Part shown: positions 1,447 to 2,700 of the stretch, one piece after another
Numbering within the stretch: the first letter of the stretch is position 1
How the letters are laid out: every line of letters starts with the position of its first letter
DNA from: Acidobacteriota bacterium
GTDB taxonomy: Bacteria; Acidobacteriota; Terriglobia; UBA7540
Assembly (NCBI GenBank): GCA_021838785.1
Contig: JAKCCV010000012.1
Coordinates: forward strand, 1-64,000
Length of the DNA: 64,000 bases
Direction: 5' to 3'
Notes under the pieces: generated by a model
Seen by the model: the letters and a program-made list of their open reading frames with translations, nothing else
What the model was told of the DNA's origin: nothing
Databases searched by the model: none
Made by a program: the position numbers and the translations under genes

Positions 1447-1763
1447 GCCAACTCAAAGAAGCCTCGGGTCTGTTTGGGGTAACAACGGCTCGCTCAACAG
1501 GGTTAAACCAGTGGAGGATTGGCCGATACTGCGCCATTTTGGCTACAGGAATGCCTTACCTTGATGGTGAAGAAAGTACTGGCCCGACGCCAATGTCCGT
1601 GCAACCTTCTTGGTGGCAGAGGCTTCTAAGTGAGTGATTGCTCGATAGATACCTCGACGGCTGGTTCGTAGAAGCATTTCCAGTGTGGCAGTGGAGTTGC
1701 TCGACAAGCGATGAGAAGAAGGGTGGGGTTCCTCCGATTTTGGAAGATGAAGGGAGGTAAACA
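1447..1763. other. Upstream region of the repeat protein gene
   Basis: No gene seen; the open frames on the minus strand are shadows with no family resemblance. The segment ends with AGGGAGG at about 1753-1759, a strong ribosome-binding site for the gene at 1764. No riboswitch was recognised. Confidence 0.4.
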
Positions 1764-2363
1764 ATGAAAACAAAGCTCCTTTTAGCGACAATTTTTGTGG
1801 TGGCACTCGGTTGGGGGATTGATGCGCGAGCTGGAGCCATTCGATGGCTGGCTGGGAACTTTGTGCCAGCAACCAAAACGGCAGCTTCGGCGACGGTGAG
1901 CGGGGTGGCCAGAGCAAGTAAAGCAACGGTTAGCGCGGTCAAGACGGCGGCTCCGCCTACCGGTCACGCCATCGTGACGGCGGGGAAAGCGACGGGCGAT
2001 GCCGTGGCGGATGGAGCGGTGGCCACACGCAACGCGGTTGCCACGGCGGCTCCGCCTACTGGTCACGCCATCGTGACGGCGGGGAAAGCGACGGGCGATG
2101 CCGTGGCGGATGGCGCGGTGGCCACACGTAACGCGGTTGCCACGGCGGCTCCGCCTACTGGTCACGCCATCGTGACGGCGGGGAAAGCGACGGGCGATGC
2201 CGTGGCGGATGGCGCGGTGGCCACACGTCACGGCGTGAAAGCCGCTCCCGGATGGCTGGCAGAGCAAAGCTCCAACGTGGCTCACGGCGCCGAGGCTGCT
2301 CCGCGCTGGGTTGCCCAAAAGACATCCTCCGCCGCCAAGGCGGTTTGGAACACAATCTGGTAA
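1764..2363 (+). CDS. Exported alanine-rich protein with three 33-residue repeats
   Basis: 199 residues with an N-terminal signal peptide (MKTKLLLATIFVVALGWG, cleavage probably after ARA). The body is low-complexity, rich in Ala, Val, Thr and Gly. Three consecutive 33-residue units begin AAPPTGHAIVTAGKATGDA, and degenerate half-units flank them. A Trp-containing motif (APGWLAEQSS, then APRWVAQKTS, then AVWNTIW) marks the C-terminal part. Cys is absent. The function is not recognised. The amphipathic Ala/Val pattern suggests a fibrous or helical periplasmic or surface protein, but that is inference. The gene is monocistronic, with an AGGGAGG ribosome-binding site 5 nt before the ATG and a strong terminator 54 nt after the stop. 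Confidence 0.8.
   Translation: MKTKLLLATIFVVALGWGIDARAGAIRWLAGNFVPATKTAASATVSGVARASKATVSAVKTAAPPTGHAIVTAGKATGDAVADGAVATRNAVATAAPPTGHAIVTAGKATGDAVADGAVATRNAVATAAPPTGHAIVTAGKATGDAVADGAVATRHGVKAAPGWLAEQSSNVAHGAEAAPRWVAQKTSSAAKAVWNTIW
1947..2243 (+). repeat. Three tandem 99-bp coding repeats
   Basis: Units at 1947-2045, 2046-2144 and 2145-2243 differ at only a few bases (for example ACC/ACT in the Thr codon and GGA/GGC in the Gly codon). They stay in frame, adding 33 residues per unit. Near-identity at silent positions means recent duplication or ongoing homogenisation, so copy number may vary between strains. Confidence 0.95.
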
Positions 2364-2416: not shown

Positions 2417-2450
2417 AAAGAGGGCGCTTGAAAGCGCCCTCTTTCTTTTT
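2417..2450 (+). terminator. Rho-independent terminator after the repeat protein gene
   Basis: AAAGAGGGCGCT (2417-2428) and AGCGCCCTCTTT (2433-2444) form a perfect 12-bp stem with a TGAA loop, followed by CTTTTT. The A/T-rich stem base makes it potentially bidirectional. Confidence 0.9.
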
Positions 2451-2700
2451 GTGAGTCTGAATTCCTCGAAGACGCTTGTCTTCAACCTCATGAGTGGGCA
2501 TAATCGGACGTTCACCGATGGCGCGGGCGCAGCCACAAGCGTATGGGCGTAACCGACGGCGGCTGAAGCAGGCCAAGGCGCAAGAATGTTCGATGACCCG
2601 CGAGCGTGGAAGGGGGCCAGCACGCTTGCGTAACGGTTCGGCGTTGAGCCGTATGAATCCTCACGGATCGGCCCCGCTCGAAGGGGCGAGGAGATTCAAA

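Follow-up and report, generated by a model that had tools for sequence, protein, structure and literature searches.

The window, by which we mean the whole stretch of 64,000 nucleotides analysed here, forms the beginning of a 113-kb contig from an Acidobacteriota genome (G000; 3.4 Mb, 98% complete). Near its left end it carries a gene, starting with ATG in the list of open reading frames, for a protein of 199 residues that contains three tandem repeats (Table 1). The original prediction had given this gene its own strong ribosome-binding site and terminator, and both are borne out by the sequence. It had also called the product exported; by inspection the protein indeed looks exported, with a hydrophobic core (15-residue KD maximum 2.44) followed by a putative cleavage site. 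The repeat protein is present as a single copy in its genome, where two other matches appeared at E 0.02 and 0.1; the match at E 0.1 is the antisense strand of the repeat gene itself. An antisense ORF at 1782-2384 was judged to be a shadow of GC-rich coding. Close to the contig start, a 180-aa ORF on the minus strand (31-573) resembles, by eye, the remnant of an integrase-type transposase.

Table 1. Features of the repeat-protein locus (positions within the window).
Feature	Position	Strand	Basis
Ribosome-binding site AGGGAGG, 6 bases 5' of ATG	1751-1757	+	Sequence
Gene for putatively exported 11-mer-repeat protein, 199 aa	1764-2363	+	ORF; orthologues and family members
Putative signal peptide (residues 1-23), cleaved presumably at DARA|GAIRW	1764-1832	+	Inspection; hydrophobic core
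Mature N-terminus GAIRW, conserved	1833-1847	+	20-member alignment
Repeat unit 1, 33 aa = 3 x 11	1947-2045	+	TRF; unit comparison
Repeat unit 2	2046-2144	+	TRF; unit comparison
Repeat unit 3, differing in its last 15 bases	2145-2243	+	TRF; unit comparison
C-terminal end AKAVWNTIW, conserved, final W invariant	2334-2360	+	20/20 rows and C-terminal part of G023
Intrinsic terminator, 12-bp stem, loop 4 (hairpin 2417-2444), then T-run	2417-2452	+	Sequence

The three near-identical 99-bp units described in the original prediction were recovered by TRF, which reported a single tandem array in the 64 kb (1944-2232, period 99, 2.9 copies, 97% matches, score 550). Units 1 and 2 differ at 3 of 99 bases, units 2 and 3 at 9 and units 1 and 3 at 12, and every difference between units 2 and 3 falls within the last 15 bases of unit 3. 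When the 33-residue unit is read from its residue 8, it resolves into three 11-mers, AIVTAGKATGD, AVADGAVATRN and AVATAAPPTGH. Autocorrelation of the mature protein stands out at lags 33 (z 16.9), 11 (z 7.3) and 22 (z 6.5). Seventeen family members from outside the genus gave pooled z values of 7.3 at lag 11, 5.9 at lag 7, 5.0 at lag 18, 4.5 at lag 22 and 4.0 at lag 6, values that are inflated because the members are related and therefore not independent. These are mostly alpha-helix lags, and the array in the window is a local elaboration of an 11-residue period found across the family. A member from another genus (G011; L016, 6476-6874) has an internal repeat of its own, at lag 26 (z 5.8), which suggests that expansion of the core occurred there separately.

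Searching with a profile of eight sequences (A1), we found members in 21 of the 39 genomes of this bacterial family and in 13 of its 18 genera (E <= 0.01); among its 18 best-quality genomes, 14 match at the same threshold. A phylum-wide draw of 396 genomes returned three matches at E <= 0.001, one of them being the window genome and the other two falling among the 395 other genomes (G433, 1.2e-5; G087, 2.5e-5). The match in G433 falls on an alanine-rich part of a larger protein, and we treated it as convergent composition, not as a homologue. It belongs to a 318-residue frame (L051, 1267-2220, minus strand), in which an A/G/T/K-rich stretch like the window's repeat core is flanked by what we take to be peptidoglycan-binding and BON domains. 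Two class-level matches (G055 and G060) were not accepted as members, as they have no conserved ends. One of these, a 106-aa exported-looking protein rich in K/A/G/T repeats (G055; L010, 1399-1719), possibly represents a separate LEA-like family of the class.

Twenty intact members were aligned (A3), leaving out a partly masked one (G023) and second weak matches in two genomes (G016 and G014). The A-G pair at the cleavage site (A23, G24) is invariant in all 20, I26 and R27 (mature residues 3 and 4) are nearly so, mature residue 5 is Y or W in 17 of 20, and the last residue is W in every member. What the members share is a signal peptide, then a mature chain that opens near G-[AV]-I-R-[YW], runs through a core whose length varies and always closes on a C-terminal Trp. 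Mature length ranges nearly threefold, from 66 to 176 residues. The Trp motifs that had been noted as part of the repeat pattern do exist, but they sit mostly at these two ends, and in 11 of 20 members all aromatics are confined to the first and last 10 mature residues. The family is real and conserved, apparently undescribed, and belongs mainly to one bacterial family of Acidobacteriota, although 11-mer repeat proteins as such were already known; no description of it was found in the literature searched, at the level of listings and abstract starts.

The surroundings of the gene vary across the bacterial family. Within the genus of the window, a co-directional lactonase gene follows it (3 of 3 genomes; G000, G001 and G002). 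Elsewhere among the 21 member genomes it is transcribed divergently to tldE, at a distance of up to about 0.55 kb at eight loci (G011, G022, G006, G015, G030, G018, G005 and G017) and with one ORF between in a ninth genome (G019). TldE/TldD (PmbA/TldD) proteases are known for processing peptides. We nevertheless rejected a functional link, given the lactonase neighbour in the window's genus and the presence of PmbA/TldD in all 39 genomes of the bacterial family; moreover, these proteases are cytoplasmic, and the adjacency is therefore best read as inherited gene order. We saw no hidden members, by regular expression and by eye, in 20 stretches upstream of tldE (several of them short) from genomes without a detected member and from some carrying one elsewhere. 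Nor do the neighbouring genes offer any pointer to a membrane function.

Upstream of the repeat gene, at 1379-1446, lies a candidate small-RNA gene. Its core segment (1390-1411), GATTAGACCCAAGACCCGACGC, is almost unchanged between genomes; the intrinsic terminator behind it has a stem whose sequence varies (10 sequences compared). Allowing two mismatches or fewer, the segment occurs exactly once in 22 of the 39 genomes of the bacterial family and in none of the 296 other genomes of a phylum-wide draw; a reversed-pattern control also gave 0. Rfam gave no match up to E 1. The candidate is likely to be a small-RNA gene, and by this distribution it is specific to the bacterial family. In the genomes compared from outside the window's genus, the segment and the repeat gene are on different contigs.

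We compared the array with its orthologues in the genus. The syntenic orthologue of the sister species (G002) likewise contains three units, with identical placement and ends, and its product is the same at 197 of 199 residues. The two genes differ at 37 bases, 35 of them silent. Within the repeats there are 22 silent and no replacement changes over 99 codons (dS 0.307, dN 0), which indicates strong constraint at the protein level, that is, purifying selection; outside the repeats dS is lower, at 0.19 for the remainder of the gene, 0.11 for the adjacent lactonase gene and 0.15 for obg. A more distant congener (G001) has a 166-aa orthologue whose two units have diverged at 32 of 99 bases, so that unit counts in the three species are 3 (G000), 3 (G002) and 2 (G001). 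The original prediction had suggested that repeat number could vary between strains; between species of the genus it does vary. In a fourth genome of the genus (G003, 84% complete) no member was matched, which may reflect incompleteness.

Over their first 84 bases, the units differ from one another at 3, 3 and 0 positions within the window genome and at 3, 5 and 2 within the sister species, while the nine comparisons between the two genomes give 5-9 differences. Four silent positions (27, 39, 60 and 78) differ between the genomes in all three units and agree within each genome, and this number of shared positions was reached in only 8 of 200000 permutations of positions. This pattern leads us to reject old units that diverged silently on their own, and it indicates either ongoing homogenisation of the units within each lineage (concerted evolution) or independent re-duplication in both; the data fit either. 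The original prediction had taken the units to be recently duplicated, to which their near-identity conforms; a simple recent duplication does not, however, fit a sister species with the same three units and four silent positions that shift in concert. The pattern that the original prediction had named as evidence against itself, a constant repeat number with accumulated silent differences, is seen by half: the unit count is constant in the nearest relative, with silent differences that lie between genomes and are few between units. Collapse or expansion of the array during assembly is unlikely, because the same three units stand in another, silently diverged genome.

The window protein had been described as unlike any known family, and this holds in the libraries searched (Pfam, NCBIfam and PHROGs). 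Pfam DUF3756 (PF12581) matches it at E 5e-5 with 23.5 bits, under the gathering cut-off of 25 bits; the best stretch is 21 residues of the repeat, and two of the 20 members reach E <= 0.1 with this profile. Weak matches to Moricin, an antimicrobial family of insects, came from 2 of 20 members (best E 0.0016), and Pfam gave no further convincing match for the 20 members. At E <= 0.1 no member matched a Pfam profile for LEA, synuclein or perilipin, and no apolipoprotein profile was among the members' Pfam matches. NCBIfam, searched with the window protein alone, gave nothing near cut-off, and none of the 20 members matched PHROGs phage families at E <= 0.01. A lipobox cysteine of the Braun-lipoprotein type is absent, the mature start being glycine in 20 of 20. 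A PDB profile search listed alpha-synuclein (three chains) and one 'Lbp', all without significance (E 0.12-0.96), with alpha-synuclein best (E 0.12). Alpha-synuclein is an animal protein without a signal peptide.

AF2 modelled the window protein (20 rows) at pLDDT 42.9, confidently at the signal peptide only; helices were placed, with low confidence, at 2-56, 143-156 and 182-198, and the repeats were mostly without structure. A compact 110-aa member gave pLDDT 48.5 and a mostly helical model, whose confidence was again low except in the N-terminal signal. Such models would fit a protein that needs a partner in order to fold, and are no proof of disorder. All 20 members carry a net charge of +1 to +11. 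The mature window protein is low in acidic residues (8 D/E in 176 residues), and each 33-residue unit has net charge 0 and one Pro-Pro, a helix breaker. All 20 members have a sliding hydrophobic moment (100 degrees) above that of the average shuffle (z 1.84-3.85), the window protein being at the bottom of the range (z 1.84). As a 3-11 helix, its 33-mer has a small moment of 0.15, which does not surpass that of shuffles of its own residues (P 0.16). A transmembrane glycine zipper was rejected for the window protein, whose mature 19-residue hydropathy maximum is 0.85; for 19 of 20 members this maximum lies between 0.31 and 1.32, and only the remaining one (G024) reaches 1.72, with one GxxxGxxxG.

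The reading we favour, tentatively and as a real possibility short of a probability, is that the product is a Sec-exported, cationic, largely disordered envelope protein whose repeat core, on meeting an envelope membrane, would fold as an extended 11/3 alpha-helix of weak amphipathicity that rests on the surface. The Y/W at mature residue 5, at one end, and the W residues close to and at the C-terminus, at the other, would act as aromatic clamps. Binding would proceed through many weak contacts, so that repeat number would set avidity, as in perilipin 4 (Plin4). Recombination between units would keep the array uniform while selection holds the protein sequence, and the protein would probably serve to protect or stabilise the inner or outer membrane during stress. 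In support of this reading we count the 3 x 11 make-up of the unit, the helical lags across the family, the moments and positive net charges of all 20 members, the aromatics confined to the ends in 11 of 20, the low-confidence models, the non-significant first place of alpha-synuclein in the PDB search, the lack of replacement changes in the repeats and the precedent of Plin4.

The closest parallel is human Plin4 itself, whose amphipathic region is described (PMC5889406) as having 29 tandem 33-mers, each 3x11, as unfolded in solution, weakly amphipathic and targeted in a length-dependent manner through many weak contacts, so that more units bind better. The window protein shares with it tandem 33-mers of 3x11 with no indels between units, a Thr/Gly/Val-rich composition and, at best, a weak amphipathicity. 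Plin4, however, is eukaryotic and intracellular and coats lipid droplets with its 29 units, whereas the window protein is bacterial, apparently exported and Ala-rich, with three units, a Pro-Pro in each and conserved aromatic ends. The moment of its unit (0.15) is below that of Plin4 (0.257), the weakest in the table of that source, although scale and averaging may differ. The weak moment, the Pro-Pro, the zero charge per unit and a gene neighbourhood that gives no hint of a membrane role all speak against a coat; since two Plin4 33-mers are not enough for droplet targeting (PMC5889406), three weaker units may bind poorly alone. The Pro-Pro would kink the helix every 33 residues, bringing the protein nearer to apolipoprotein A-I, whose amphipathic helices are broken by prolines and have a listed moment of 0.39 (PMC5889406); no Pfam apolipoprotein match was found. 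Alpha-synuclein, the best if not significant PDB match, likewise has 11-residue repeats and lipid-dependent folding (PMC5889406). The likeness to Plin4 is analogy only, with no sequence homology shown; equally for synuclein and LEA proteins, we suggest analogy and do not claim homology.

The main competitor, which we consider unlikely, is a periplasmic LEA-like protectant (hydrophilin), disordered in water, that would shield proteins and membranes in bulk during drying or freezing with no specific membrane binding, its repeat number being a matter of dose. Group 3 LEA proteins (LEA_4) have 11-mer repeats, predicted helix and disorder, and the window family matches them in its 11-residue repetition (lag 11, in the window protein and in 17 others), its A/T/G/K-rich composition and its low-confidence AF2 models. 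There is also a bacterial precedent in BilRI of A. actinomycetemcomitans, a LEA-like 11-mer outer-membrane lipoprotein that is predicted to be helical and was disordered by NMR (PMC8096337). Yet LEA_4 11-mers carry regular K, D/E and A, and BilRI is a lipoprotein without aromatics (PMC8096337), whereas the window protein is poor in D/E and its family has conserved aromatic ends and no lipobox. No member matched a LEA Pfam profile, and a bulk protectant has no need of conserved aromatic ends or an invariant terminal W.

We regard as improbable a structural spacer or linker, joining the membranes to each other or to the wall, whose length would be set by repeat number as in a strut of the Braun-lipoprotein kind. 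The gene's own strong RBS and terminator, the helical period and the range of mature lengths would suit it, but the lipobox cysteine is missing, every unit has a Pro-Pro that would interrupt a rigid rod, lengths vary nearly threefold between members and there is no sign of cross-linking. Two further explanations are, in our view, very unlikely. Small size, net positive charge, Trp at the ends and the weak Moricin matches would fit a secreted, cationic, membrane-active peptide or precursor of bacteriocin type, anchored by its terminal Trp; against this, no gene for an exporter or of immunity type stood out among those shared neighbours that were searched, the repeat core is weakly amphipathic, and selection is strongly purifying, not diversifying. 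If instead the repeats were chance duplications whose number has no function, two units in one congener and three in the other two species would be expected well enough, but not the absence of replacement changes beside 22 silent ones, nor the same count in the sister species.

To return to the membrane-surface helix, a bolder version holds that the family is an independently evolved, exported bacterial counterpart of the Plin4/synuclein design, an envelope coat whose affinity for the outer or inner membrane is tuned by the number of 33-residue blocks, with recombination keeping the blocks uniform and selection freezing their sequence; we give this only a slim chance. To our knowledge, long 11/3 membrane-coating helices are known mostly from eukaryotes. 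If the reading is true, such helices would have arisen in the bacterial envelope too, among the little-studied envelope proteins of this group. The two or three units within the genus, and the 66-176 mature residues across the family, would then form a natural series for relating repeat number to membrane avidity, and the array would show, in a bacterium, how units within one gene evolve in concert while their protein sequence is strictly constrained.
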